Assembly: GCA_950295325.1 (NCBI GenBank)
Contig: OX485803.1
Span: 14,322,001-14,386,000 of the forward strand
Length of the DNA stretch: 64,000 nucleotides
From: Polytrichum commune
Lineage: Eukaryota; Streptophyta; Polytrichopsida; Polytrichales; Polytrichaceae
Direction: 5' to 3'
Part shown: piece after piece, positions 5,937-55,660 of the stretch
How the letters are laid out: every line of letters starts with the position of its first letter
Numbering within the stretch: the stretch's first letter is position 1
The notes under the pieces: model-generated
Database searches by the model: none
What the model saw: the letters and a program-made list of their open reading frames with translations, nothing else
Told to the model about the DNA's origin: nothing
Position numbers and translations under genes: made by a program

Positions 5937-6811
5937 GTCGACGAACACTCGAGCAATCCTGTGCAAAGATGAGATTCATAAATTTCTTAGAAGAAAATCT
6001 TAAAATCTGACGAAATAAAAATAAATTATTTGACGACTCTGCCTCTCCGCCACATCCCTAAGTTTTTTCCTTCCTCGTCACCATTTGGAAAATCACGTAT
6101 CTCTCTGCCCTGCGAAGTCCGACCTAGTCTTGCAGCATTTAATTCAGCACAACTTCTGGATTATCGCACCTCGAGTGTTACTATATCGTTAATATCAGAA
6201 AGATGAAGCAGCAGAAGATTCAAAGAACTCGAAACAATCGACAAATCAAACAAACAAATCAAAATCTGCCATAGTTGTATAAAACTTACTGCTACATTTC
6301 AAGGAAGATGTGAAACCTTGCGACCTATTCCCGTGCGTTGGCGCAGGCATGAGGATTCGGTGAGGGCAGCGGTAGCACAAGCATGCCAATTTGTAGTGAA
6401 TGGTGGAGGCTTGAGAGCCACGCACCAACAGCGACAGGGAAGCAAGAAATTCGAACACAAAGGGCGCGGGAAGGAGGTAGATCGCAGGATGAATGGACGG
6501 ACGGATGCACAAGCTTTGGTTTGTAATTTCACCGCCTCGAGACTTTCTTTCAACAGACCATAACCGGTGTCTGGCGACATTGCCGTCGTGGCAGCTTTTG
6601 GTTGGTTGAGAACAGGGGGATTCTATCCCACAACAACAAGTGCCCCACCCACGTCTCCGGCCATACTTGGTTTTTGGAACCGCGTTGCTGACATGTCATC
6701 TTTTTAGTGGTCCATCTGGACAGAAATTTCAAGCTATATATATTTATTGTCTTTCTTAACTTGTTGAACCAGTCGTCATATAAGCAATAAGATTTCAAAA
6801 ACCAACTATTA
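5937..6811 (-). promoter_or_regulatory. 5' leader and promoter region of the RAD54B-like gene
   Basis: The start ATG at 5936-5934 is preceded by an acceptor-like tract (TTTGCACAG at about 5960), so the leader may be spliced. A minus-strand ATG ORF (6580-6299) could be leader sequence with an upstream ORF; I see no conserved domain in it. No clear TATA box was assigned. Confidence 0.35.
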
Positions 6812-36009: not shown

Positions 36010-38079
36010 CTTAAAAACAACAAACCCAGGGATACAGATCACCAGGAAGACTGAGCTAGTGTCTATAAGGGTTAATGTCACATTGGATTAAGGTTCTTAA
36101 TAACATTCTTAGGTAATTCTCATTCTTTACTCTCTTCAATGTGGGTTTATCTTATCCATTCTCACTCTTATATTTCCTCTCACTGTTTATCAGTTAGTGG
36201 GGTATGTGTGTCAGTGAGCTGTAGTATCCATCTCGCCATGAGATTTGAGTAGAACTATTGTCAAGAGAGAACTATGATCTTTGAGTAACACAACTGTCTT
36301 TTGGTAACCATTTGGCCAATGCATCTTCAATTCAAAAGCAATTCCTTAATTATTTGGTCAAGGTTAATTCCGATGTAAAACAATGTGTTTATTCCTTAGT
36401 TCCACTTTAGTTATCACTTACAACTTATGCAATTATTTATCTTTTACGGTAAAGCTATAATCTTGGTTGCCCTGCAATCCTGCAAACAACAATAACCAGG
36501 GTAACACACAAGGTAATAGTTGATGGTATTAATTTTGCATTTCGTACTCAAAGATCTACCTCTTGATCAAGTAACAACTCATAATTCCATTAAAATTAGG
36601 TTAACTCATACCTAAATCGCCTTTATAATCCAAAGTTAATCCTATCCGACTTACTCTCAATATCTTAATCTCTTAACTTTCTCTAATCAACTGATCAGAA
36701 GTGATTTCTCATCACTTCAGTTGATTGAGATTTCTATCTTAAATTCCATTATTCTCAATTATAAAACCAACAGCCTATCTTAGACTTCAACTATAATCTC
36801 CTTACGGCTGAACTCCAATCATTTCCCCTCACAATGCCTCTCACAGGCTTCAACTATGTTAATGTATTCTTTCACAATGGTCTGACTCTTGACCTCTCGG
36901 CTTCCTATCACCCTAAGGTAACTCAGACTCTAGCCAATAGTTACCCTATAGGTAAATTAGCGCTCGGCTCTTACACTTGGCCTTCTGTCTTACCCTCTCG
37001 GTATCGGATTACTCTGTGTTCAACAATGCTCTGTTCCTTCTCTTCTCTCACTCAAGATAGCTAGGTTCTCTCCTGCTCAACACTGTCAGATTATAGTTAT
37101 ACCCTCTCCTTCCTCAATCGCTCAAGATTTCGTTCTGCGACCACAGCTGCTCATAGTTCGACTCCTCTCTCCAAACACTCACCAATCTCTCATCCCATAA
37201 CCTTCTTTCTTTTCGGTTATAATTCCAACCAGTTCAACTATGATCGAGGGTTAGTTCTTCGGCCACAATTGTTCCACTTCCAACCCTGACCGCTAATAGT
37301 TCTCCCTCGTTCTCTCTTTCTATTCTTCAACAGCCCGAGTCACTCATATTGTTGTTACTTCAGGCTTGGTCGATTGCAATCTCCACGTACAACAATAGTT
37401 TCACGCACTCTTTTTAGCAATATCTTGTCATGTTCAATTTCTCAATCACTCTTCACAGTTCCTTCTCACGGTCCCTCTTATTACACACACTCGCTCGTTG
37501 TTTACTCACATTCTTTATCACTCTCCCTTGATTCCAGAATCTCTCCTCTGTCTCAAGGTAATCCAATCTCTGTTCACATTGTTTCCTCATCTCTTGTTCA
37601 CTCACACTCTGTCTCACAATCTTCTTCTCAGTCGATCGTTATCACGTTCACAAGTGTAAGTATCCAATTTCACATTCAGGCATTCAAATTCATTCCCTCA
37701 TTCACAATTCTCACACAATCTCACTCGCAATTTCTCAATTTCTCACTGACACAATCATCGAAGATAGTTTTCCATACAGCCGATAGTTCGACCAGTTCTC
37801 ATCATACTTTATAACTCAAAATGAAAAATAACAATAAACTTCAGTAGCACCTAGTGTCTTGCAATCACTGCTCGGATCACTCAGTATGCTCGGAAGATAG
37901 TTTAACAATTTACCTCACCCAAATGCGGGCTGAGGGAGACAATTCTATAGTTTAACTATTCGCTCAAAGTTTATAAGAAAATGCCTGGTTTCTCCTTCCT
38001 CGGCCGCCCTCTTACGGAGGCGAGGAGAAGATAGTTTTCGTAACTACCTACTAGGGCCTCCTATGGCCGTAAGTCCATA
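36010..38079. other. Pyrimidine-rich low-complexity DNA, split by the CACTA insertion
   Basis: From about 36.6 to 37.9 kb the plus strand is strongly C+T-rich, with repeated CTCAC, TTCTC and ATAGTT words. The 146-codon ORF at 37374-37814 is Ser/His-rich low-complexity sequence and not a credible gene. The same ATAGTTCAACTA-type text resumes right after the CACTA element (55191-55290), so this is probably one older element or satellite-like block split by insertion. Identity unknown. Confidence 0.45.
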
Positions 38080-38103
38080 CACTACTACAGAACACGTCTT
38101 TTA
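38080..38103 (+). repeat. Left terminal inverted repeat of the CACTA element
   Basis: 24 bp beginning CACTACTACAGAACACG, a perfect inverted match to 55167-55190. Preceded by ATA at 38077-38079. Confidence 0.97.
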
Positions 38104-39416
38104 TTCCAACACCCACTTCACTACATGTCTTTTACTACTATGAAGAGTGATTGGGGGAATGCACGAAATTCAATCATGTTCATTCAATGTCCGAATTTAC
38201 TTTGAGGAGTCATGGTGGTGAAATGGGACAACAATTCAGTTGGGAACGCACGTGTGAACGTGTTTGGGAACGCCCAATGGAACGTGCATTACTGTGGGTA
38301 GTGAAGTGGTCGATTTGGAAAGATTATCAGGTCAGATTGTCATATGTTTCAAGGGTTTAGAGTGAGTACTCACCAAAAAGGGACGTCTATTTTTAGAATT
38401 TATAATAGAATGCACATATTTATATACAGTGAGGCATTTCTACATAACTAACAAAATCTAATTTAATCTATTTGAACATTTCTATCTGCTTCAATTCCAA
38501 AGTCATCCTCATCTTCAAAAGGAGATTCGTGTTCATTTGTGTTCAAAGCTACAACCACTTCGTTGCTGCTTAAAACCACAACCTCATCCAAAATTGGGTC
38601 AGTTGGTGTTGCATCGTTCTCTAAAGATGCGGACACCAATCCACAATGCTCTTCAACGTTGCCTAGAGATAGACAACCTATGTCCGGTATATAGTCTTTG
38701 TTGGAAACAACTCTTGCTCCCCTTGGCTCTTTCCGTATAACCACCTTCCACCCATGATTGGTCAAATCATCTGCAAAGAAAACTTGTTCAACATGGAGTG
38801 GAAATGCGAAAGATTCGGCAGATAATGGTACCAACCTATCAAAATTCACTAGACTAAACCCATACTCATCTCGCTTCATGGTGGCATTGTGCCCAACCAT
38901 ATTTGCCATCACCCAATTACAATACAACACAACCAATTCATATCGACCATAGTCTACGACCAATATTTCCTCCACCCATCCCACATACTCCAAGTTCGCC
39001 GCCTTCATGTTCTTGACACGTACACTTGATCGACAATTTTGGGAGAAGGTGGCGGCCACGCCACAGTCGCATGTTGTCAATGTCCCCTCTGCACTTCGCA
39101 CACGGATATGGTTTCCAAAAGCATACATGGAGCGGTAAGATGTTGCTTGGCTAGAGGGTGAAAGAGACAAGACCAATACATACTCATCAATCTCCTCTTC
39201 CGCCGCTTTGGCACGTGAAACCTCGGATTTGAACCAATTGTGAAAGGGCTCATCTTGGAGATTTTCGGGGTAGACAATCCTGCCATTACGTTTCTTCCTT
39301 CGATATTCCTCACGATCCAATTTGCGCTGTGTCATACTTGCGGTGTGACGCCTGCAGAAAAACACAATATTGTGTTGTCTTTCAAATTCCAAAGGTTTTT
39401 GTTAATATTATTTTAC

Positions 39417-39560
39417 ATAGTAAAGTAGATATCACGATGGAGAATAATAAATATATATCATTTCCATAATTATTCACTTTTTCGAGTCACAGATGCTTAC
39501 TACGTATAGTTATTGGCTAGTATGACTAGTGACATTATAATGTGCATGCCATTAACATAT
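39417..39560 (+). repeat. CACTA internal ~150-bp repeat, left copy
   Basis: Sits in the transposase intron 39352-39616. The order TAGTAAAGTAGATATCACGA, ATCATTTCCAT, TCACAGATGCTTACTACGTA, TATGACTAGTGACATTATAA, GTGCATGCCATTAACATATC is repeated with changes near 51370-51510, 53085-53170, 54282-54435 and 54600-54710. Confidence 0.7.
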
Positions 39561-42500
39561 CATTGTGCCTGGAATATAATGTCACCGCCAGGAACAATAG
39601 TCATAAAGTAACTTACTCTCTCCACGACTCCAAAGGGGCCACATTATTCACCACAAATTCATGGATCCAATCGTGTATCTTGGGGGTTAGTATCCTTAGG
39701 CGCCCAACACCTTCCAATATTTCGTCGTTCATTGTAGGATCCTCTTTGTCGTCCCATATCCTGCGACTTGTAATGGAATATGACGTCATGTATTCCATGC
39801 AAAAGCCAAACGCCTCATCTATTGCATATCCTTCGGCCATACTAGCTTCGGGTTTATTGCGATTTCAAACATAGCCCTTCAATGTCTTCAAATACCTTTC
39901 CATAGGATACATCCAACGGACATGTATAGGCCCACAAATATCTAATTCCTCAATCAAGTGCACCAAAAGGTGCGTCATGACATCAAAAAATGCCGGTGGA
40001 AACTCCTTTTCAAGCATGCACAAGGTGATGGCCGTATCCTCTCTCAAGTCACTCATTTCCAACGGATTGATGGTTTTAGCGCATATCCGTTTGAACATGC
40101 GGCTTAATCTTATTATGCATATACGCACGTCTTTTCTCATGATTGTGCGTATACAAAGGGGCAAAACTTGTTGCATAAGGACATGGTAATTGTAGGATTT
40201 CAATCCTTTCAATGTCCCATCAACGTTAACTCTTTTCCGCAATTGGCCCACATAGTGGGTTGGAGTTTTCAATTGCCGCACAACATCCACAAATACCTCC
40301 TTCTCGTTCTTTGTGAGCACATATGGGGCTTGTGGCAAAGTGAGGCTTCTTGGTTTTCTCCCCGGTATGGGCCACAAATGCGGCCGTATGTTGGCTTCCT
40401 GTAAATCCAATGGAACCTTTAGTGTATCCTTCTCCCCAAATATGGTTTTCATAAGACTTTCTGTTATGTTCTTCTCGCAGTGCATTACATCCAACGTATT
40501 GCGTATAAGAAGGCCCTGTTGGTGCACACAAAATTTGGGTAAGTGCACTGGTTATCAAATGCCATATAATAAACTGTTGCAAAGTGTTGAAACAATAGTT
40601 ATCCGATATGACTATACCATTACTTGTATAAGTATTGGAATATTAATGAAAATGCATTTATAAGTGAACCCTTATTTTCTACAGTCATTATGCATTACCG
40701 CTAACGGTAAAGTGTATTTATTGTTAATAGACATGCATTACTTCTGAAAGTAAAATAAAAGTCGCTAGTTTGTACCTTCCAATATGGTAATGCAAAGAGT
40801 GCATTCTTTCTCTTCACTCCATGCCCGTGGATTGGATCTAGTTTGTCTCCTTCTTTGTTTTCGGTCGAGCTTGCCAACCAATCTCCTCTTTGTTTTGCAA
40901 ACCACAATTGATCATGTGCAAACATTACCCGCGGGGGACCTCGGTGATCCTCTTCTCCATCAAAACTATTTTTTAATCGTCTATACGGATGGTGCATTGC
41001 CAAGTAACGACGATGACCGAGGTAAACGTTCTTCCCCAACGACTTGGACCTCCTCGTTGACACATGTGGCCCACATGGAGGACAACCCCTATACCCCTTC
41101 GTTACTTGTCCGGCAAGCAACCCATACGCCGGAAAGTCATGTATGCTCCACATAAGAATCGCACGAAGGTTGAAATTTGGGTTTGTGGAATAAATACTCC
41201 CCTCACTTGAACTCGCCTTCTCCAAAATAGATCCATCTGTTGCCATCACCCCTTTCCACAACCTTTGAAGCTCCTCTATAAGGGGTGCTAAATACACATG
41301 GATATTCTCCTCTTTCACACTTTCTTTTCCGGGAATGATTAGGGTTAACATCACAAAAAACCGTTTCGTAACTAGCCATGGTGGTAAATTGTAGTTTAAC
41401 AATACCACTGGCCATGTTGAATGACTTAAAGACTGGTTAGAAAATGGATTGACACCATCCAAAGCTAATGCCAAACGTAGGTTTCTTGGCTCCTTCGCAA
41501 AGTCCGGCCACCTTGCGTCCACGTGTTTCCATGCCTTTGAATCCACTATCGATCTCACTTTGTTGTCATTGCTTTTTCCCTCCACATGCCACGTCATAAG
41601 CTCGGCAAGGCGTTTGCAACGGTACATTCGGAGCAACCGAGGTATAAGAGGAAAATGTCGCAACACTTTCACTGGAATGCTCTCACTACCGGGAATATAT
41701 CGCGATTCTTTGCATTGGGGACACTCTTTCGCGTCCTTCAATTCATTCCTGAACAAGTAATGACCATTCTTGCACGCATGAATAGTGTTGTAGCTTAAAC
41801 CCAACTTCCTCACCAATTTCTTGGCCTCGTAATGTGAAGGAGGGCAAGTGTTCTCTTTGGGGAGTAGATCATGTTTAAGCAACTTGAGCAACTCGTCCAC
41901 GCATGCGTTTGGTACTCCAAAAATGTTGCATACATTGAGGAGCATTATGATAGCTTGCAAGCGGTTGGTGGGGCTATCATTGAAGAGCGGAGTTCTCGCT
42001 TCTTTCAATAATTCCTCCATACTATCGTCATTTTCTTCATTGCTCTCTTCAAGTAAAGGTACTTCCATGTTGGCCATCTCGTCCTCGTCTTGTTGTCTTC
42101 CTTCGTCTTCTTCCTCCATGCCCTCATTGCGTGATGTGGTGTTTGCGTGTCCGGGCAATCCATCATACCTCTTGAAACACTCGTTCACCATCCGAACTAC
42201 CTCCACTCCCTCCCTCATATCTTCCACTGCTTCTGTATTTGTTTCTTGTAATAAATCTCCATCTACATCTCTTTCCGTATCATTGTTTGCTTCTACCGTC
42301 ATGTAGCTCCCTTCTTGTGTCGCATTCCATATGTCACGATTAGCAGTGTAGATGTCGTTGTTGACCTCCTGTATGTGCATCAACAACAAGAAACAACTCA
42401 TTTACTCTTAGTAACTCAATGTGAGACATGTTGAATCTAGTGGGTTACATTTGGCGCACATGTTCTCTTCTATTCCTTTCACAAGCATTACTTTGATATT

Positions 42501-42988
42501 CACTACGACAAGTAATGTGTTACGCTACATCTTACTATCCAGCACAGGAAGCCTCCTGGTGTTGAACATGTAAATGCATCAGGAACAAGATTCCATTACC
42601 TCTCGTGATTCAAAAACCTTGTATGTTTACAACAAATCCACATGAACCATTACTTCCACATGTTCTCTTCTGACACTTTCAACTTCATTCAGTACTTGTT
42701 CACTGTGTCCAGTATTGCAAATTACTGCATCAAGTAAAGCACTCCAACACAACATGCCTTATTACTTTCAGCGGGTATGTGTGTCTACAATAAGATTGCA
42801 TTGCATGGGACGGCAAAGTAACCTTGTATAGTTATGAGGAATCCAGATGGTTAAATTGTCTTCACACGTTCTGTTCTGGTCCTTTGAAGTGTATTTAGTT
42901 GGGGTTCACTAGGTCAAGTAATGCAAGATGATATTCAAATATGCAATGAAGTGCGTGATCGACATATTTTAGAGAAAATAACACAACT

Positions 42989-43585
42989 TTAATTCACGGA
43001 GTAATATGCAAACAACTCTTCTCCTACTTCTATATCCCTTGATGCAATGGTCATAACAAAACCCCATTCGTCATTGTTCCAAGGCTTTGGAGCCAAACTA
43101 TGCTCCCACACTACATTGCCGATTTCCTCTCGCCCTATGGAGCTATTAATAAATCCTGCAACATTGCCCCTCTCCACTCTCCCGTCGATGTAAATGTCAT
43201 CCTCAGCTTTAAGGACATAGCTTTTGAAGCGGGGTACAAGACTGATCATCTTGCGGTATTCTGTCCGAGTGTATTGAGGCCCCACAAATGGCAAAAGGAT
43301 ATCGCCTGCTTTTGCGGGATCCATTGCAAATAAACCCCAGCCCATGAACAAAAACCCAAAAATTTTCACTTCCCACTTTCTATCATGAAAGTTGAAAGTA
43401 CTAAACTTTGGTATGGGAGCATCACACCACTGCCCATCGAATTTGTCAACCCTCCAATTCATCAATTTCAGCTCCTCATTAGTGTAAAGATTATTTTCAT
43501 GAAACGGTGTGGGGGTTGTCATCTCTTTAAAAAACTCTTCCATGGCCGCCTTAGCTGCTTCCTCAACAAAAGGTCTTCTTTGTGC
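42989..43585 (-). CDS. SET-domain coding exon carried inside the CACTA element
   Basis: 198 codons open from an acceptor (TTCGTGTAG/GC, exon start 43585) to a TAA at 42991-42989, lying in the transposase first intron. It has the ordered signature of a SET lysine-methyltransferase fold: GWGLFAMDPAKAGDILLPFV (G-x-G and cofactor-side strand), IDGRVERGNVAGFINSS (the usual GN.a.fiNHSC position, here NSSI) and WGFVMTIASRDIEVGEELFA then YYS (the A.rdI..GeEl..dY end). Joined to the preceding exon (43871-43674) the phase is 0, giving about 264 aa: finger plus SET. It could instead start at its own Met at 43543. The His of NHSC and the post-SET cysteines are absent, so activity is open. No stop or frameshift is seen, unlike the neighbouring transposon genes. 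Confidence 0.75.
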   Translation of the reverse strand, partial: AQRRPFVEEAAKAAMEEFFKEMTTPTPFHENNLYTNEELKLMNWRVDKFDGQWCDAPIPKFSTFNFHDRKWEVKIFGFLFMGWGLFAMDPAKAGDILLPFVGPQYTRTEYRKMISLVPRFKSYVLKAEDDIYIDGRVERGNVAGFINSSIGREEIGNVVWEHSLAPKPWNNDEWGFVMTIASRDIEVGEELFAYYSVN

Positions 43586-44439
43586 CTACACGAATGGAAT
43601 CGTTGCAACATCAAAATTAAAGTTATTGGACTACAAAACAATAGAATTCGATGAACGCAAATATAACACTTACCAATATGGATTTCGTGAATGCGGGATC
43701 TCGTTTGTATCGACGAAGATGTTTTCGTATGGTTGCCCTAGACAATACCTTTCCCCCTGCACACATACTACAAGGGCATCGATACTTAACCAATCTTTGT
43801 CTGTCTGCTTCTTTTTCCTCCAAGTTCCATAACTCCAGGTCCAACATTGCGCGCCTTGCTGATCCATCCATTTTGAATCTATATTTCAACAAATAAAATC
43901 TCGTTACTTAAAACGGACAGCGTTACTTGATGTAGTGATTATCATTACTTGACACAGTGAACAAGAACTGTAGTTAAGTAATAACTGTATGTACTTGAGT
44001 AATGACTGTATGTAGTTGACACAGTGAACAACAACTGTATGTAGTTATATGTAATTTAATAACCAAAATCATATAATTAGAGTAGTTCATCAATTAATTA
44101 GATACTTACCATTTTGCGATTTAATTTGTAGATATAAACTAGGAAGTCATTGCAAAACCTAGATATTAGGTAGATGTGCCCGCATAGATAAATGAGAGTT
44201 GGTGATAGAAAAATTAGGAATTTTAGATGAGAGAAGATGTTTCTCTTGCAGTACATATGTTTATTCATGTTCATTACGGGTAACAAATACATGTACCCCA
44301 CAATACTAGGACAACTTGGAGTACATTGTATTGTCGGCTTAGTGGGGGCTACTACTTGGAGTTACGTGTTGGTATAGCTTTTACGGGGAGCATCTTTTCT
44401 CACCCAAATAAATAAGCATACTTACCCGTATGATATAAT

Positions 44440-44705
44440 GGGAACCTACACTAATTCGAGAAAACAATGCACACTAAATATGTTAAATAGTGTCTGATTA
44501 TATTTAGTGTTTTTACCATCCTATTATGTCATGTCCATACTAACACCAAATTTGTGCATAACTTCCACATATTGCCATAGTTGATATTTAGGGTTTGATT
44601 GTACATTTAATGGGGCTTATTTCTTTTGGGGTTAGTGATATTTAGTGTTTAAGTTTGTATTTAGTGTATCAAACACTAAATACCATATTTGGGGTAGTTA
44701 CGGAT
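44440..44705. repeat. MITE fragment, ACACTAAATA family, inside the CACTA element
   Basis: CACACTAAATATGTTAAATA on the left and several TATTTAGTGTTT / ACACTAAATACCATATT words on the right resemble the elements at 8794 and 35305. It lies in the spacer upstream of the transposase start, so it is nested in the CACTA element. Boundaries are rough. Confidence 0.5.
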
Positions 44706-46538
44706 GGTGCAGAAAAGTCAAGTTGGCACATATCCACCTCATGAACTTCCTCTTCCGGCTGTATTTGACCTGACAAACAAGGGACCATAGTAACTATATG
44801 CAATGATTGAGTGTAAATACTTACGCATCCACAATTACCGAGCTACACCTATTCTGTGTGAGGAAACTACATGAGGATGGAGCAGATGTAACCTTTCTGA
44901 GGCCTTTCACTGGCTGGTTTAGGGTATCTCCCGAGTGCTGCTCTGCAGAAAAACTCCAATACGGGAAGGGCCTTGTCGACCACACCAGGGTGAAACGCCT
45001 GTGGGAATTCTATCCTTTCCCTCAACTACGCATGCTTCCACGCTCTGATTCGCCCTTAGCCTCCACGTTCATCCCTGGATGCTCTCGATGTTTGTCCTGA
45101 AGTGGTGCTTGAAGCTCGTGCAATCAGAACAAAACTGGTGGTTGTGGTGGCGTATATAGTAGTGAAGTATCTGGGAGGATGAATACGATTCCTCGTTCAT
45201 CCCATCCATATCGCACTTAGGGTTTCAGCAAACACAATTTTGCACTGCACTCCAGTCTTCTGCGCCTCGAGACCCATCTTTTCTCGCTTCTGAGTGCTGG
45301 GAGTGCTCAACCTTGCTAAGGTTAGTTATGTCTCCACCTGCTTGGATACTCCATCCTACTCACATGTTGGCTGTTGGTGGTTGAAAAGACATTGTGTTCT
45401 TGTGTTGAGGGAATTGTTTTTTTGTTAAAACTGTTGATTTGGGTGTTACTAGATGTTTGAAGGTTCATTGTGTACCGAAGTCGTTCAAATAACTGCAGCT
45501 ATTACTGCAAGTTGTGGGCTTCATCTGGTAGAGTCCGAAAAAGGCCGCATTTGTGGACTCGGGATGGACTCCATCCGGTCGCAAGTGGTCCACAATTCGG
45601 AGTGACATACTTCTGAGTGTTGTATGTTCTGCTTTTGGGCGCACTTAGGGTTTAGGGTCATCTACGGATCGTTGAGTTTAGAATTACCTTCATCTATCGT
45701 TCGATCTGTAGCCCGTGCCTCGTGTGTACATATCATTAACGGAATGCATGCGTTCTTTGAATCGGTCATGGCCAACACACCTGCGATGTGGATGACTCTT
45801 GCCAATTTTTTCGTTCCGATCGTTGAGTGTAGAATTACCTTAAGCCCTTGCTTCATGTGCACTCATCATTCATGGAATGTATGAGTACGAGGTACATACA
45901 TTATTTATGGATGCTATAATGACGTTGCCTAAAGTGCATCTGCTCGTGAGCCAACAACACGATTGTGAGATTCAATTGTGGTTCTTGGAATGCTTCATGT
46001 TAATGTGTGCCTACGCTCGTCTCGTGCTACGTATCCTGTCTACATTTTAGGTTGCCACCTTGAGTGGAAGTAGAGGTCATTCTCACTCCTTGGTTGTAAA
46101 TGCATCAAGTGCAAATCAGTGTGGCAATGGTAGGTGATCCTCAGTGCTTCCGAATTTGGTCAGTGATGTTTTTTGCTCTTTTGCAGTCTACATTTTTTTA
46201 TGTCACTCTGGTATTTCTTCTGCCATGTGGAAATTCAAGCCCTAACTCCTCCAACATTTCCAGCATTTTCCATATGGAATGCGGATTGGTCTGACATTAT
46301 TGTTCTCACTTGGGAAGTCTCTTAGATGACTTTGCCCTTGGTGTATCTGCTCTATGGAAAACTGGACGGTTGTAAGCTTCTTGCCTTCTCACCTGTAATG
46401 CTTTATCCATTGCGTCTGAATGTTCTTCCCATGCAATACACCATGTTGTACATGCTTGAACCAGTAGAGCATGTAGGTTAATCGAGAAATCTCAGACTGG
46501 TTGATTTGCATACAACAATATTAATTTATCTCCACTGT
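44706..46538. promoter_or_regulatory. Central spacer of the CACTA element
   Basis: No gene recognised. 44840-45110 is GC-richer, with an unassigned 97-codon plus ORF; it could be a captured exon or leader. An imperfect duplication GATCGTTGAGTTTAGAATTA / GATCGTTGAGTGTAGAATTA lies at about 45669-45750 and 45819-45890. The transposase start (43871) is about 1 kb to the left and the TNPA-like start (49664) several kb to the right, so promoters for both units may lie in this wider middle region. Confidence 0.35.
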
Positions 46539-46650
46539 TGATGCATGCGAGGAGGTGGTGTTCGAGTTTGAATGAAGAGCAACCTATTTTGGCACCTCTG
46601 AGCATAAAATGTTCTTCATTCAAACCTCCACACTACCTCCAAGGATGCAC
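46539..46650. repeat. Hairpin repeat related to 3650-3822
   Basis: GATGCATGCGAGGAGGTGGT with GAGTTTGAATGAAGAGCAAC is mirrored by GTTCTTCATTCAAACCTCCA and CACTACCTCCAAGGATGCAC. The right arm in reverse matches the left arm of the RAD54B-intron hairpin. It lies just upstream of the IFT20 exons. Confidence 0.65.
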
Positions 46651-46881
46651 TGCGAACTTAGCAAACATGGAAGGTGTTGTACGCAAAAACAACCAACTCC
46701 AACCAAAAGTCATGTTGAATGTCTACATTTTTGGACTGATTGCGTATGGCTTTGCCATAATTCAAACCCTCCTTAATGTCTTCCAAAGCAAATCTGCTTG
46801 TGTTGAACATTTTTGAGAGTCTGCACTTCAGTGACCTGAAGTTCCTTGACCTTTCTGTGGCCCTGTTTGGTATGGCGGCAG

Positions 46882-47623
46882 TTGGTTAAGCAATTGCTGG
46901 ATCAGGTGAGTGAAAAAGCGCAGCAGATAGAGACTGCTAAACTCTCTGCTGTTGGAATGCGCAACTTGGTGTCTGCAGAGATTGAAACAAGGTCTGCAAA
47001 GCTACGAGATCAAAGAATCTTGATTGCTTACAAAGAAGAGCAACTGGAGGTATAAATTCCTGAAGCTGCAACATATGAATTTTCTTCTCCGTGAATTGGG
47101 TTATTCTCTCTCGTGCCATCCATGTGTGCTCACTAATGTAGATGAACTTAGAAATTGTTGTGTGTTATATCCTCGTCAGCAATCCTCAATGCTCCTATTA
47201 TGTCATGTCCTTACTAACATCAACTAGGTTGTGGCAGTCAACCAAGTTGATCAAATACCGTGATGTCTTCTGCACCATGCTGTAATTGCTTTGGATTTTT
47301 AATATTTTGTCCAGAGATTCATGCATGCCCTGGGGTGGCGACTTTCCCCTGTAAATCAGTTGTTTCCCCTTTACACTCTTTTCAAAGTAATTCTCCTCAA
47401 GCAGGGGTGGTTATCCTCCTCTGATCAACTTTCAAGCATTGAGAAGTCCTTTGTTCCAAGGTTGGTGTTCTGCGACATAAGGACATGAACTGAAAAATCA
47501 CTCTCTTCGTTATTTTGTGTTTCGAGGCAGAGGCTAAATGCTGAGTACGAATCACTGCTGGTGGTGAAGCAAGAGCAAGAAATCACTATTGCTCGTCTGT
47601 CAAATTCAAGCCTGCAAGTTTGA
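46882..47623 (+). pseudogene. IFT20: IFT20 gene fragment (two C-terminal exons) captured in the CACTA element
   Basis: IFT20 is a small coiled-coil subunit of the intraflagellar transport B complex, needed to build cilia and flagella. Exon 46882-47049 (56 codons) reads DQVSEKAQQIETAKLSAVGM then RNL and ends IAYKEEQLE before GT; exon 47531-47623 continues in phase 0 with RLNAEYESLLVVKQEQEITI then ARLSNSS, ending at TGA. Together they give about 86 residues matching the C-terminal two-thirds of the ~130-aa family (AxGxRNL; QLER.xxEYESL). The 481-bp intron is kept, so capture was from genomic DNA, not cDNA. I could not find the N-terminal exons, so it is probably partial. It lies wholly within the CACTA ends. 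Confidence 0.8.
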
Positions 47624-49663
47624 GGTTTGTATATCTGGTCCTCCAAAGATTAAAAGGAACCAGCCAGTTGAAGACACTAAAGTCGCATTACTTGATGGAA
47701 CGCAGGCAAGCAGTCAAAACATTACTTTTCAACAGAGATTATGATAAAATTTTGATAGAAATAATCTGGCTGGAAGATAGTCAGCTCAGGTGGTTCTACT
47801 CTTACTTTGTCTTAAATATATTCCGCATTTTCAAGATTATGCATAAAGTGTACAGTGCATGGTTGATTTCCGAAACTTTTATGAAGCAAACTTGCTGACA
47901 CAAAATCACAGATCACATCCATACAGTTGAACTTTCTATTTCAGAGCATGAGCTACAAACAAGCATAGTAAGCATTTTGGAAGAATAGTTATCAATAAAA
48001 TCTTGTATATTGTATGTACATAAACACTCAGATCACTTTATCCATCACTTTTTTGTGATTCAAACATATTAATATGGATGACAGTAAGGAGTCCACCTTT
48101 CGAAAAGAAGTAACCTTACCTAGAAGCTTGGTAAAACATGATCAAGAAAAGGTAGAATGGGCTCCCACTCACGGTAGTGTATACGTACACCACTGTTAAT
48201 TTTATTTTGTTTTATGGGTGATAGAATACTGTAATTGAAAAACAAATGTGCTAAAGTCACAATATCTATTAATCATTAAAGTTGATTAATAAATGAAAAT
48301 CTTGTTGGGCACCTGAAGCGATTGCAAGTGTAATGTGTTGTTATGTTGAGTTTATCTTTTTGTGAGAATCCTCGTGCTGTGGAAAAAGTGGAAATGTTTG
48401 GTACCGTATTATTGCATTGCTTCCTGATCCGAAGAAATTTTGTTCGTAGCACTTGGTTGGTTGAGAGCTGACAACTACTAAGTTATACATTGCAGACTAG
48501 CTTCTCAATCAGCACAACATATCCTCTCTCTCGTGGTTCAAGTGGCAAGCTTGAGGTAAGGGAATCCTCAAACATGTACATCTCTTATGATGTCAATTGT
48601 CAGGTTGATGGATAAATAGATGCTCTGCTCTGTTTTGATTTATTTCAAATGAACCCCTATGCATCTGATTAAAAAGTACAAAGTTTCATGTGAGTCTTTT
48701 AACCATGTCTTTGTTGTAGATTTTTGGAATCCTCACATAAGAATGATGTTGTCTGGATCCCTCTTTTGATGTCATGTTCCTTTTTCGTGTGCGTGTTTGA
48801 TATGTGAAACAAATATTAAATATCATATCAAGCAAAATTCTATTAAAATCGTGTTGTTGACAAAAATGAATGTACCACCTTCTTATGTATATAATCAATT
48901 TATGGTTATCTTATGTACATAATCAGTTTCGATAGCATTTAAACCCGTCCTGGATGGGGCTTTGTGTCTTTAGGAAATGTGATTTTCTTTGTTGGTTCCA
49001 TAAGAGAAGGGGCTCTTTATGGGGAATGTTTGTGGCAACAAAGGTGAGTGGGTCCTTAATATGATGAAGCACAGTGGTACTTCTGTACACCTTTCAGTGT
49101 TCAAGCACTTGGGTTGTTGGAACCTGAAGATGACCTACTTTGACTCAATCACATTGCATCAAAGAACAATGCGACTTGAAGAATGTGTAGCAAATTAGAT
49201 TAAGTAAGTCATTGCATGTCGCAGATGGTGAGGAAATTCAAGGTGTGAATCGTTGTGGTTTATTTCCTGAATGAAATCTCTCATGGAAGCACAAGTTTAA
49301 GCTAGCACAAGTGACAGCAGAAGTCCCTACTTTCTTTCTGTTTGCTACTTTTTGGGGATTCTAGATTGCATTACTCACTTGGGTGTTGATATATGGCTTC
49401 AGTTCGGTGACATATCAGCCTTGCATGACTAAGGTATGTGGGCATTATATGGTCACTCTTCCTAACTGGACACCTATAATTGAGTGGTTTATAGAAAGAC
49501 TTGGGTTAGAATGTTGATCTTTAAGGGTCCAGTTACATTGGTCTCCAATATGTAATGTGGTGCATCTTTTGTGGTGAGTGCCAGGAGGTAGAGTTAGAAG
49601 CAATGAAGTTCGTGTGAAGTAGACTTCAATCTGGTCCTCCATCATATGTAGTGTGCTTATTTT
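47624..49663. other. CACTA interior without a recognised gene
   Basis: May include former IFT20 3' flank captured with the exons. ORFs are short and motif-free. A piece of dispersed repeat D (GGTCACTCTTCCTAACTGGA, CACCTATAATTGAGTGG) lies at 49435-49500. Confidence 0.4.
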
Positions 49664-52600
49664 ATGGAAGTGGAGTCCGAATACGAGCGACTAAGGCGTT
49701 CTAAGATTGAAGCGAACAGAAGGAAGTTGGAATCCTTGGGACTTCTTGCATTGGCGGCTTCGGTGCAACCGGCAGCTATTTTGAAGAGGTAAACTTCCAT
49801 CCTTGTTGGTATGCTTGAGATTGTAGTCTACTTTGAGAACTGTTTACACTTAAAATTTATAACCTTAAATTCGAACCCTCACCCTAGTTCATTTGTCGCA
49901 GCTATCCAACTGTCAACCAAATATTATGGAGATTAAGCTGAAAATTTTACTTAGAGAAATAACAACATTGAGCGATGAAGACATGAAGACTTTGTTTTTA
50001 GAGGTTCACAAATTTCCCGCAATCAATTCGTCTTTGCTAGCCAAAATGCAAGATCTCCTTGCTAATACTTTCGAGGATGCCAGGACTACGGTATCCGATT
50101 CCCTTTAGCCACCCAGGAGGAGTGCCAGGTTGTCATCTAAACCATTAGTATCAACGCATATAGAGGAAAGGGAGAGTAGCAAGGAAGATGGTGTATCTAG
50201 TGAGCATAAAATTGATAAGGACATAGACTATAGTGTAGAATCATCATCATCAGAAGAAGAAGAAGAAGAAAAAGAAGAAGAAGAAGACCACAGAAAACCC
50301 ATTGCAACCCAAGGCAAACCGGTAAGTAATCTAATTCGCTGGCTGAATATGTCACTTTAATTATTGCATGCTTGAAGATAGTCACTTTCGTGCATTGAAC
50401 GCATTCATAATCTTCATAAGTGTTGTGGGTGTTGTTGTAGTCAGTTGGAATTGAATATCACTGCGTCTAGTCGTACACATTACTTTGTCCAGTTGAACCT
50501 TACTACACATAGTTGAACTCTACTAAGCAAAGTTATATGCTAATTGACCCCTTAACTATGCACAGTAGGAAATTTCTATGTGCCCTTGGATGTGACAATG
50601 TATAGTCAATAAGAATATTGTTTGGGTGTTTTTGCAGAGGAGAGAACTTCCTAGAAGCTGGACTTTTAGGAAGAAGAAAATGGCCTCACCTCGCAGAGGG
50701 AAGAGGAAAGGACATGTTGAAGATTTGGAAGGTTGGGAGGATCGTCGTGAGGCTGAAGAGGATGAGGACGACGAAGAAGAAGATTTCGATTGGAGCAAGC
50801 CAATCTTGGTAGAGGACGGGAGAGACTATGTCCGGGTGCGAGGAAAGCAATCTCAGAGGGATGATCCAGAACCTTCCAAGGATAGTAGTGCAGCCAAGCT
50901 AGCCTTAGAGATAGAAAAAAAAGAATTGTTAATTATGAAACGGGAGTTGGCATTAACATCACGCCGCCACTCCGTGAGGGCGCACAGCAGCGACGAAGAA
51001 GAAGATGAAGTTGCAATGCGAAGGACTTCCAATCACAACTCGCAGATGAAGGCCAAGAGGAGGGCAGCGAATAAAGCATGCCGGGATGAATTCGATGAGA
51101 GAGCCCGGGAGGGAAAGCCAAGATTTGTTGTCGATCTTGACGATAACGGTAAACCATAGCCAACCCAGTATTTTATGCAAAGTTCCTTAGATGTTTGTCA
51201 TTGCATCCAAACATCAAGAACTATCGCTATAACCATACGACTAAGTTGAGTAATATGCATGTTACTCGTTACAGTAACCGAACTCCATTGCATTCTATAC
51301 ACTTAGTGAATTCGATATGTACCTCACTACTTGTAGTAATACCAGACCTTGTTGTCAACATTACTTGACATAGTAAGGTGTTTATCACTCCATGAAGTAA
51401 GAGATATACCCCATTACTAGATGTATTCACTCTTAGCAGTCGCAGATGATTACTACGTAGAGTTAGTTTTTACTACAACTTGTGACAATGTAATTTGTAT
51501 GCAGCATAACATATGAATATTGTTATACTTTGAAGGAGGTTTGTTGTTGATTCGTAATGTTTTTTGTAGGCAATCCCAGTGGAGTTTATAGGCCGCAGTG
51601 GCTGAATGCGCTGCGAGGCTACTCCAGCGATTTGGACTGGAACGTGGACAACGTGAACGATCAATCCGAAACAGCTCTCGATAACATATTCACACGGATG
51701 AAGGAGAATTGGGAGTATCGCGGCTCTCGTGGAGAAACGAGAGTATTGAGGTATGAAATTTTCAAATCTAACCTAGGTCAACAGCTGAAAAGTAAGAGAG
51801 CGCAGATGAAGATGCGCATATCAAAAGGTTTATGCAGGCTTGAGTCTATCCGCTTGGACCACTGGCTCAACATGGTTGAACTGACACGCGATCCTCGCAA
51901 AATTGAGCAAGCAAATGTGATGCGGGAGGCGAGGAAGTGCGTGAAAAAAATCTCTTCCTTTGGACGTAGCGAAGGGGAGGTCTGAGCCCGGCTGGTGAGT
52001 AGTCTTGAGTTAGTTTTGCAACTCACTGTAATATTTGAATTTCGTTGATTGTTCCCGGGTTTTTGACTTTGTGATTCAATTGTGCAGGCCTTGGAGTTGA
52101 ACAGGGACCCCCGCCAGGACGAGGTGGAGGTGGAGCTTGTCAAGGACAAGAACACCTCGCGATCGAGAGGTGGCCGGCCGATGTCTTCGAATTTGTCAAG
52201 GGGGGGGGGTTAGTGATGCCCAGTACGAAGGCGGATTTGGTATTTCCCCGCATATAAGCCGCACAAGCAACTCTGGAATAGAGGAAGTGAGGGCAGAGGT
52301 GAGGACAGAGGTGAGGGCATTAGATGAGAGATTAAACATAATGCAAATGAGAATGCAATCCTCGCTTGATGCCGTGATGGCCAAGCTTGGCATCATGGTG
52401 GAAGGAATGGCGAGTGGACCCTCACGTGGAGCCCCTTCCCCTCATGATGACAAAGGAAAGGAGAACTCCCGTAGGAGTGTGTCTCCTACTGCACGTTCTA
52501 TGTCCAAAGACCCTGTAAGCAAGGTTCTTGACTTTGGCAATGCTGGTGAGAAGCCTATTGTGTTGAATACAGAGATCCCTTGCGGATCTCAAAAAGCATC

Positions 52601-53854
52601 CTCAGGGCACGAGGAGCAAGACCAGGTATGAATTCAGTTTGCGAGCAATTTGAGAACTATGGCATTCCACAACCTATGTGTTCAATTCGCAAAGTGTATT
52701 GTAATATAATTTCAGAGCCTTGTTTGGTGTCCAATAATTGAGTTGTCTCTTAGGCATGTGTGTGGTTGAGTTATGCACAGGCACAAGAGGTATCTAGTGG
52801 GGCAGTTCAATCAATTGGAAGGCCAACATCTCACGATGGTGTGAAGACACACGAAGGGGATGTGAAAACTGAGAGGGGACCTAAACCAAAGCGCATACGA
52901 CTGAGCGAAGTGGAGAAGTTAACTTTGGAGGCCGGTCCAATGATTCAGAAAGGTCACTTTATCAAAACTTTACTTGATTATGTTGAGTCTTTATGCTAAC
53001 TTATATAGTTATGTAAACATAACTATACACAGTGAAATATCGCTGTAGCAAGTATGCAATAATGTCCTTAAAGTTTTATTTTATTACTACCCGTAGTCAT
53101 TGAAGCTTACTACGTACAGTTATTGGCCTACCACATAGTCGTCCTACATTACTAGATGCAGTAATGTGATATCAGCTAAGCCGTGGAGTGTTTAGATAAT
53201 AGAGGTGGATTTCAAGATATCTACATCTATGTAGGAAGTTGTGCAAACCAAGATGGAGCTGTAGAAATGTCCTAAACCAGGACTCAGCTACATTTGCTAA
53301 AACTAGGTCTGTGTTTGAATTTGATTCAGTTTGCCAATGCAATAATGGTTCAGTGTAAGGCTAAAATGGTTGAATAACATTGCAAACAAGTTGAGGTGTA
53401 GCCCATTAAAAAAGGGCTCGAAGAAAATTGAGAAAGAAGGAGACAAAGAAGTGGTGGATAAGCGTCGGGGTGATAAACCGCCCCTTGCCACGAAGGCTCC
53501 AAAGAAAAGTCAGCCCACTTATGAATTGGTAAGCACATGTTATGGACATTGCAATATTCAATGATTGGACCACTCGCAACCCAAAAAATATTATATTCTT
53601 AACACTAACTTGTGGTTGTCGCAATTGTGCAGACAATGGGGGATGTGGTATACTTGTGTGGCTATGAAGAGGAGGATTCGAAGGCCAAACATATTGCTAA
53701 GGGTGTTATTTAGAATGTAGCGGGTGGTATGTTGCACGGAAAGGTGATTGGCAAGATGTATGTTTCGTTGACAATTACGGAGTCATATCAAGACGACTAT
53801 CCCCTACTTGAACCTCTCAATGGAGACGATCCTCCTGTCACTACAATTAGCTAA
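49664..53854 (+). pseudogene. TNPA-like second CACTA protein (Transposase_24 type), multi-exon, decayed
   Basis: Likely the accessory DNA-binding protein of the element. Exon-like blocks: 49664-49788, 49902-50321, 50638-51148, 51570-51994, 52088-52625, from 52781, about 53370-53528, and 53633-53854. The start reads ESEYERLRRSKIEANRRKLE, typical of plant En/Spm second proteins. A basic stretch (PPRRSARLSSK) and acidic/Ser tracts follow. The 51570 exon is the best conserved (RPQWLNALRGY, then IFTRMKENWEY, a Transposase_24-like pattern), followed by a coiled-coil segment (VRALDERLNIMQMRMQSSLD). The end reads VAGGMLHGKVIGKMYVSL. Stops at 50106-50108 (TAG), 51983-51985 (TGA) and 53711-53713 (TAG) fit C-to-T change. 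A 10-G run at 52200-52209 shifts the frame by +1. The phase between the first two blocks does not fit. Confidence 0.7.
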
Positions 53855-55166
53855 GCGAAGGGCCATTTCATTCTTTGGTCAAGTGAGTGTGTAAGGTTGT
53901 GTGCGGCTACGTGAGCGTGAAGTGGATATGTAAACCTATGCTGATTTTTAGACATTTACTCCTATGGAGTTCAATGATTACCATTGTTAGTAGCAAGTTG
54001 TGAAACATTCATGATACACTATTATATGAACATGAGTTGGGTTTTTGAACATCATAACTCAGTTTGTGCATAACATTTGTGCATGTTCTCAACATATGAC
54101 TATGTTGAGTCATCCTTGGTTAGTAGATGCAGTAAACGAAATCATTTGCATCATAAACATGGCACTCTGCTAAGTGGACTTGAACTTCACTACTAGTAAT
54201 AAACCTTAAATACATAAGTAAACCATATGACCTCACAAAATAGGGAAAGCACCAAGGTTAGTTGTCCACAATACTTTCATAGTAAAGTATTTATGACTAC
54301 GCCAAGTAAGATATATACGCCATTTCCATATTCGTCCACTCTGGATAGTCACAGACGCTTACCACGTAGAGTAATTGCCTAGTATGACCATTGGCAATAT
54401 AATGTGCATTCCATAAGCGTATCACTGTGTGAAGTGAACCACTTGTTACTTGATACAGTAAAGATAGTAATTATCATTACAAAACATGTCACTTGGCAAA
54501 GTTATATGCACTTCATTACTAGTAATACATAATAATTACAAACGACAACTACAGGACCTCACAACGTAGGCCACAAATTACTTGGTTAATGTAAACATTA
54601 CTCAATTCAGTGAAATGGATATTACGATATGTAGTAAGAAAAATGAGCATTCATTGTATATATTTACTATTAGCAGTTACAGACGCTTACTACGCAACGT
54701 TAGTGAATCCCCGGTTTGTTGTCCGCGATAACGGGAGACAGTAATGTGTGAGAATTAATTGACCTAATTATCGCCACGTGAAAAGATATTTGTTGCAAGC
54801 ACGTTCTTAACGCTAAGGGCCAAAATGGAATGTATGTATTGGCATTTTACATATTCTCACTTTGTGTAGTGAAGTGCAATCACCATACATGACTGGTGCT
54901 AGTACCACTAGTCCACTGGACCTAGTAATATAAACTTGTGTCTTATTGTACTATTATTGACGAGGGGGAGTAAAGGAGGACATTTACTTTAAGTAGTAAA
55001 GCCTTGGAGCACCTCAAACTTCACTGCCATTGGGAACGATTCCATTGGGAACGCCCTGTCCGACATGACTATGACGACACTTTACTGCTTGTCTGAAGCG
55101 ACTGGTTGTTTTCCACGTTAGTAAAGTCCGAGTTTTCTCACTTGTGGAAGTTGAAAAACCCAGTTG
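53855..55166. repeat. Right subterminal region of the CACTA element with internal repeats
   Basis: Two copies of the ~150-bp internal repeat (54282-54435 and 54600-54710) contain CAGACGCTTACTACG/CAGACGCTTACCACG. TTGGGAACG occurs at about 55034 and 55050 and also near the left end. Such subterminal repeats are where TNPA-type proteins bind in En/Spm; that role is inferred here. Confidence 0.6.
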
Positions 55167-55190
55167 TAAAAGACGTGTTCTGTAGTAGTG
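55167..55190 (-). repeat. Right terminal inverted repeat of the CACTA element
   Basis: 24 bp ending GTGTTCTGTAGTAGTG, the perfect inverted match of 38080-38103. Followed by ATA at 55191-55193. Confidence 0.97.
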
Positions 55191-55660
55191 ATAGTTCTAA
55201 CTTCCTACTGAGACTATAGTTCAACTATTTTCGTTGATTGGGATGAACTTCATCCTAGTTCTTCCCTCTAGCCTATAGTTGAACTAATTTGCCAAAAAAT
55301 GTGGCTTACAATACTCATGCCAAGATGTTAGTAATTGCAGTTGAACGCCAATTTGTGATGAGGTGAAGCTAATGATGAAGTTGTTGATCATTAATGTAAC
55401 CTACTGTATGCCTCAAAACATGGTATGTGACACTATTATGCATGTGACACAAAATACCATAAATGGTGTAGCACAAAATAAAATAATCACCCATAATGTT
55501 TTTTTAGAAACACAACCAATGTGGCCCACCCTAATTTTTTTTTTGCTATAAATTTAACGTGGGTTGAAAATTAATGTGGCCCACATTGAATCTCATTATG
55601 AGATCAGTGTGGGTTCTAGGTGGCCCCCATTGTAATAGGATTATTTATTGTAGTTACAGA
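55191..55660. other. Right flank of the CACTA insertion and a hairpin tract
   Basis: The first ~100 bp continues the ATAGTTCAACTA-type text of 36-38 kb. GTGGCCCACATTGAATCTCA and ATGAGATCAGTGTGGGTT at about 55580-55620 are partly self-complementary. No gene. Confidence 0.4.

Follow-up and report, generated by a model that had tools for sequence, protein, structure and literature searches.

The 64,000-nucleotide stretch of Polytrichum commune DNA analyzed here (positions 14,322,001 to 14,386,000 of the forward strand of contig OX485803.1, assembly GCA_950295325.1; hereafter the window) contains a CACTA transposon of 17,111 bp, in minus orientation at window positions 38080-55190, whose transposase gene carries an intact SET-domain exon directly behind its first, finger-encoding exon. 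The element has clear ends, its exons have conserved splice signals and phases, the SET exon bears the marks of purifying selection, and relatives without a SET exon have the finger followed by the transposase. On balance, we favor an explanation in which the SET exon is a mutually exclusive terminal exon, and the element makes a finger-SET methyltransferase that would act on chromatin at element copies. Within this explanation we infer that the gene is transcribed and alternatively spliced, that its product is targeted to DNA and active as an enzyme, and also which substrate it has and in which direction it would change chromatin.

The SET exon and its splice signals

Exon 1 (43674-43871, minus strand) starts at an ATG, encodes a Transpos_assoc-like finger (CPC..C..H) in 66 codons and ends in phase 0 at a donor GT (ATATTG/GTAAGTGT). 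A predicted intron of 88 bp (43586-43673, minus) separates it from the SET exon (42989-43585, minus), which follows the acceptor TGTAG/GCACAA, also in phase 0, and runs for 198 codons to a TAA. From the SET stop, a non-coding stretch of 620 bp (42369-42988, minus) leads to the acceptor of the transposase core exon at 42368 (CAG/GAGGTCAAC, phase 0). The window SET frame matches Pfam SET (PF00856) over residues 82-195 with E=1.3e-9 and 38.8 bits against a cut-off of 22.4. The window finger matches Pfam Transpos_assoc with E=4.9e-4 and 20.7 bits, under the cut-off of 27.7; the homologous Transpos_assoc part of a related element, L031 (37.5% identical across 56 residues), lies above that cut-off at 33.8 bits. 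A sequence-only reading of this locus had described an intact 198-codon SET segment in a CACTA transposase gene on the same strand, with phase 0 at all three junctions, and the open frame, the Pfam match and the junction sequences agree with it; of the two Pfam families it had named, SET is recovered above threshold and Transpos_assoc is not.

Copies were compared within this genome of 408 Mb, nearly all of it in seven contigs of 42-78 Mb. A plastid-type rbcL, most like that of bryophytes, occurs in it and marks the host as a green plant, probably a land plant. The window SET protein as query gave 201 candidates, of which 150 were scored, some loci in two pieces. By identity to the window SET they form group A at 67-100%, B at about 51-61%, and C and D mostly at 43-54%, with weaker and shorter matches below. 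Splice sites were counted in 56 loci from these four clades in which finger and SET were both located; L026, L050 and L061, which have no finger match, were left out, L026 also having no SET acceptor. In every one of the 56, a donor GT lies where the finger is expected to end or one base away (55 as G/GT, L059 as A/GT). The SET acceptor TAG is present in 54 (53 found by script and L049 by eye, an indel having misled the script), and L052 and L065 have an altered base there. Between finger and SET, the intron of clade A measures 88, 89 or 256 bp, that of B 92 bp, that of C 114-117 bp and that of D 92-93 bp. The differences are not multiples of three and both frames remain open, so only splicing can hold finger and SET in one frame; SET as an unspliced in-frame extension of the finger is ruled out, the intron lengths not being constant modulo 3. 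Further downstream, AG precedes the transposase exon in 19 of 20 clade A copies (it is lost in L017), and all 20 have an in-frame stop within 30 codons upstream of that exon; the transposase frame is therefore no continuation of SET or finger.

These signals indicate that SET is very probably spliced to the finger. One transcript would run from the finger exon (43674) directly into the SET exon (43585), terminate with the SET stop and encode a finger-SET protein 264 residues long; a second would skip SET and join the finger to the transposase core (42368).

Relatives without SET bear on this second joining. In three of them (L028, L029 and L030), the transposase is 68-69% identical to that of the window over the stretch compared, and the finger 62-63%; the finger donor keeps its position, the transposase comes next, and no SET match lies in between. 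A fourth, L031, has finger and transposase within one open frame. The best profile match to a SET remnant in these four has E=0.7, a ten-residue GWGL-like match in L028 that is within chance. Such relatives suggest that joining finger to transposase is the standard form of the gene, and it would follow that in SET-bearing elements a single gene has finger-SET and finger-transposase as its two alternative products. The transposase-core tree places L028-L030 beside L026, the SET-bearing representative of clade D, with support 99/99, and L031 on a long branch outside the midpoint root. The simplest reading is one old gain of SET and a later loss, which we call only likely in view of the long branches and the four unresolved forks of the tree. 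Grouping with clade D and having open transposase frames, L028-L030 form a SET-less CACTA clade against which the effect of SET could naturally be gauged.

The non-coding DNA around the finger-SET unit also holds an inverted repeat of 56 bp, 82% complementary, at 42690-42745 and 43915-43970; the same pairing is found in L021-L023.

Copies, termini and selection

The window element is bounded by terminal inverted repeats (TIRs) of 24 bp, CACTACTACAGAACACGTCTTTTA at the 5' end (55167-55190, minus) and its inverse at the 3' end (38080-38103, plus), identical at 24 of 24 positions. Flanking them is a target-site duplication (TSD), TAT in element orientation, with its upstream copy at 55191-55193 and its downstream copy at 38077-38079. 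Homology between the copies L021-L024 stops at 38079/38080, where the 3' TIR ends. The element thus has three traits of the CACTA/EnSpm superfamily: TIRs starting with CACTA, a 3-bp TSD, which an excerpt of PMC12730594 gives as a mark of EnSpm, and a tnp2-type transposase (Transposase_21). Across the genome, the 24-bp TIR pattern occurs, with up to two mismatches, 97 times in forward and 78 times in reverse orientation, and a reversed control pattern does not occur at all. From about 100 of these 175 places, TIRs were paired around 13 other SET-bearing copies of clade A: 12 of the 13 have matching 3-bp flanks (13 of 14 with the window included), the exception being L007. The 13 paired copies are 13.7 to 52.8 kb from end to end; the long ones presumably hold nested insertions, and three of them have a further TIR inside. 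Shorter TIR pairs about 5 kb apart (for example C1:20831562-20836495 and C2:3737369-3742771) have the same termini and none of the 150 scored SET matches inside; they are probably non-autonomous derivatives mobilized by the same transposase.

Finger, SET and transposase keep company. Matches to all three lie side by side in each of the 20 best SET loci. Since only 150 of 646 transposase candidates were scored, wider co-occurrence counts are lower bounds: a transposase lies 0.5-12 kb downstream on the same strand in at least 67 of the 90 top SET rows (identity groups: 21 of 23, 30 of 40 and 16 of 27). Conversely, SET lies upstream in at least 80 of 150 transposase rows, with minimum counts of 25 among the 28 rows of 77% identity and above, 3 among the 26 of 65-72%, 46 among the 67 of 56-64% and 6 among the 29 of 52-55%. 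The window finger exon has 34 DNA matches, 33 of them (148-201 bases) once one of 39 bases is dropped, and by eye a SET match stands just downstream on the same strand at 32 of the 33 (the exception is C4:49732735). The SET frame is open in 49 of 57 loci examined, most of the later ones having been picked for open frames, and in 18 of the 20 best-scoring loci, which were not so picked. One copy 67% identical to the window SET (C3:18193766-18194299, minus) has a listed open frame of 336 codons and one TAG counted inside the match, and is possibly a fused or altered copy. The SET exon is thus not a one-off insertion and recurs in four subfamilies.

A genome-wide Pfam search lists 119 SET matches, 90 of them, by eye, at transposon SET places and 29 elsewhere; host SET genes match exon by exon in this search, so 119 is no gene count. 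About three in four of the detected SET matches belong to transposon copies, and annotators should beware that in a genome like this one the majority of such matches can be transposon genes.

Selection on SET is seen most clearly between the two sub-branches of clade A. Comparing L001 with L016, the finger is 89%, SET 80% and the transposase 77% identical, all without gaps, and identity is 46% both over the 600 bp upstream and between SET and transposase. Differences fall on codon positions one to three as 26, 27 and 66 in SET (66 of 119 at the third) and as 45, 46 and 104 in the transposase. Over four pairs between the sub-branches, the 620-bp non-coding stretch is 45-51% identical, at SET identities of 80-83% and transposase identities of 76-77%; in the closer pair L001/L012 the corresponding values are 88%, 92% and 94%. 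The ratio of nonsynonymous to synonymous substitution rates (dN/dS) for SET is 0.21-0.23 at a dS of 0.65-0.77 in five pairs across the sub-branches. Pooled within clades, it is 0.29 in A (n=19), 0.44 in B (n=20), 0.48 in C (n=8) and 0.29 in D (n=2).

Other values are less favorable to selection: dN/dS is 0.41-0.83 among close clade A copies, the pairwise median is 0.43 for B and 0.69 for C, individual values reaching 1.69, and in comparisons between clades, where the proportion-based ratio (pN/pS) is 0.36-0.54, most dS values are saturated. Near-neutral ratios between recent copies are expected if selection ends after insertion. Selection is therefore clear mainly between the clade A sub-branches, where the comparison supports purifying selection on a SET exon that evolves like the transposase. 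There, dN/dS is about 0.22, with no indels and with scrambled flanks. We regard SET as almost certainly a selected part of the element. Chance insertion or a single capture of SET is ruled out by the copies, the TIR and TSD bounds and the selection.

The rest of the transposase gene is also in good order. Its core exon (40776-42368, minus; acceptor CAG/GAGGTC in phase 0, and a 3' end, AAG/GTACAA, read by eye) is open over 566 codons and matches Transposase_21/tnp2 at E=4e-68. It is followed by an open exon with DUF4218 (39865-40515, minus; E=2e-25), whose start was placed by eye at an acceptor-like site, and by an open C-terminal frame with DUF4216 (38463-39401, minus; E=2.3e-7). The sequence-only reading had seen stops in the neighboring transposon frames and none in SET; for this copy this was wrong, and because the neighboring frames are open too, the hint of special selection or youth that it drew from the stops fails. 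Its view of splicing and function, partly supported here, loses that argument and gains the place of SET inside the element, purifying selection, splice signals in four subfamilies and the SET-less relatives.

A second gene of the element lies in the opposite orientation (50596-52631, plus), with open frames at 50596-51159, 51551-51985 and 52101-52631. None of the three has a Pfam match with E under 0.1, and counting pieces there are 66 genome-wide matches to the stretch 52101-52628, at identities from 100% to 37%. This gene may be a TnpA-like partner. Elsewhere in the window, a 362-codon open frame at 4890-5975 (minus) has no Pfam match.

The SET protein and its possible roles

All 27 members of a SET alignment, picked for open frames and as little as 43% identical to the window SET, match Pfam SET at E≤0.1. 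Invariant among them are, with others, G82, W83, G84, Y123, D134, N141, I146, N147, N157, G188, E189, L191 and Y195, and R4 and P5 near the start of the exon are kept in at least 90%. When four host SET domains are included, which we take to resemble ATX, SUVH (two) and E(z) proteins, G82, G84, G102, Y123, D134, N147, I185, L191 and Y195 are the same in all 23 rows compared. In SET domains the GxG motif binds S-adenosylmethionine (SAM), and the Asn of the NHS motif and the catalytic Tyr are further functional residues; the transposon SET keeps them all, as G82 and G84, N147 and Y195. Profile matches in the PDB are to ASH1L (E=1.4e-5), yeast COMPASS, MLL1 and EZH2. An AlphaFold model of SET compared by Foldseek has 50 matches listed, all of them SET methyltransferases or complexes containing one, and its best VIA-align match is MLL1, with Z = 12.8 and 119 residues at 2.8 Å. 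Used with caution, since host SET sequences in its alignment helped it, this comparison indicates a SET fold, not activity.

Regarding origin, the window SET shares no more than 20-27% identity with any of the four host SET domains, and we name no donor. The sole NCBIfam match is the Legionella effector model AnkI/LegAS4, at 21.4 bits against a cut-off of 550, which we take as a plain SET match. A bacterial origin was considered and dropped: a scan of genome contigs with the SET alignment gave 94 pattern matches and no confirmed relative in that collection.

With the finger common to both proteins, finger-SET should go to element DNA as the transposase does. There it would act as a SAM-dependent lysine methyltransferase, most simply on histones, and change chromatin at element copies, which would ease host silencing or tune transposition. 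More tentatively, and with somewhat greater doubt than belongs to the proposal as a whole, we suggest that a plant CACTA lineage relies on mutually exclusive splicing of its own transposase gene to produce a chromatin writer that targets the element itself, a finger-guided, sequence-specific SET anti-silencing system kept across four subfamilies.

Several observations weigh against this explanation, and for enzyme activity, judged from sequence, our confidence is lower than for the anatomy. Ser replaces the histidine of NHSC in 26 of the 27 members, and Asn does so in the other, the motif reading INSS in 25, INNS in one and INSF in one; in the host domains it reads INHS in three of four and ANHS in the fourth. 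The Cys and PN that follow the NHS position are absent from the transposon SET, and the frame stops right after the catalytic Tyr (YYSVN), with no post-SET cysteines. The SET exon therefore departs from canonical SET lysine methyltransferases of the KMT2, EZH and SUVH types, which have the full NHSC with PN and post-SET cysteines, and on account of these changes its activity may be weak or absent. An AlphaFold model from transposon sequences alone was poor (pLDDT, the predicted local distance difference test, of 40.1) and was not used, and the second, compared above, reached a pLDDT of only 57.7 with the four host SET domains in its alignment favoring a SET result. Ntox17 is matched as well by four of the 27 (best E=8.3e-4); we take this as a side match. 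Finally, the transposase group at 65-72% identity has no detected SET in 23 of 26 rows and many open copies, so SET is not needed for spread.

The altered motif speaks for an alternative that we think unlikely yet to be taken seriously, in which finger-SET is made but is no enzyme. A degenerate SET domain would then serve as a SAM-, histone- or protein-binding module, and finger-SET would regulate the transposase or compete with it at its binding sites, perhaps analogous to the repressor isoforms of other transposons. The substituted histidine, the lost Cys and PN and the missing post-SET cysteines all fit such a protein, and the common finger would compete for the same DNA; but G82, W83, G84, Y123, N147 and Y195 are invariant in all 27 members, and a binding module would not obviously need them.

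It is less probable still that finger-SET is an active enzyme which does not protect the element, acting instead on host chromatin or on other proteins, or silencing the element itself as a form of self-limitation. Sequence fixes neither substrate nor direction, and the structure matches span enzymes that we take to act on H3K4, H4K20, H3K27 and H3K36 alike. The finger held in common with the transposase nevertheless argues for action at element DNA, and self-silencing is hard to square with long retention, although not impossible.

We regard as highly improbable that SET is a separate small gene within the intron, with its own start and unspliced to the finger. An in-frame ATG at SET residue 15 would allow it, but Met is found there in just 6 of 27 members, the conserved R4 and P5 precede it, and the acceptor is kept in 54 of 56 loci in front of introns that vary freely in length. 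That SET is a functionless passenger, a captured host gene fragment of the kind known from gene-capturing CACTA elements (PMC4158355, in excerpt), is hardly credible given its purifying selection, its lack of indels, its single position and phase in four deep clades and its largely open frames.

Comparison with known systems

The preferred explanation, a finger-SET methyltransferase acting at element copies, has partial counterparts elsewhere. SETMAR joins a SET domain with a transposase, but it is a single host gene that domesticated one mariner, whereas in the present case SET is carried in many copies by transposons. A functional parallel to the proposed finger-SET protein is the anti-silencing protein of plant Vandal elements, presumably VANC, which belongs to the MuDR superfamily and for which the excerpts consulted mention no SET.

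A CACTA gene with two spliced products is not strange in itself, since TnpA and TnpD of maize Spm arise from alternatively spliced transcripts, and the tnpD frame occupies the region of intron 1 (PMC2613891, in excerpt). The plant elements En/Spm, Tam1 and Tgmt* resemble the window element in their CACTA termini, tnp2 transposase and two proteins from alternative splicing; they differ in that their second product is TnpA, which binds subterminal repeats, and no SET is described for them in the excerpt of that paper. In the parts of the open-licence papers searched, we found no report of SET in a CACTA element, nor of a SET exon using the first exon of a transposase.

Transposon-carried modifying enzymes are known from fungi and oomycetes. 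Some fungal transposons that carry TET/JBP are EnSpm elements, and like the window element they carry an enzyme that modifies chromatin or DNA, thought to counter silencing (excerpt of PMC12730594); theirs is a dioxygenase, not SET, and their hosts are fungi. In the window element, an enzyme-like exon appears to borrow the DNA-binding end of the transposase via alternative splicing, which makes targeting directly testable, and if this is true, histone marking would be an added way for plant transposons to resist silencing. Similar in content are HarbingerS and the SET-bearing MuDR elements of Phytophthora, which are likewise DNA transposons carrying a SET histone methyltransferase gene, to judge from a brief description in PMC12730594; they belong to other superfamilies and other hosts, and the transposase of the window element is Transposase_21, not of Harbinger type. 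A SET domain in a transposon is thus already known from the Harbinger and MuDR elements of oomycetes.
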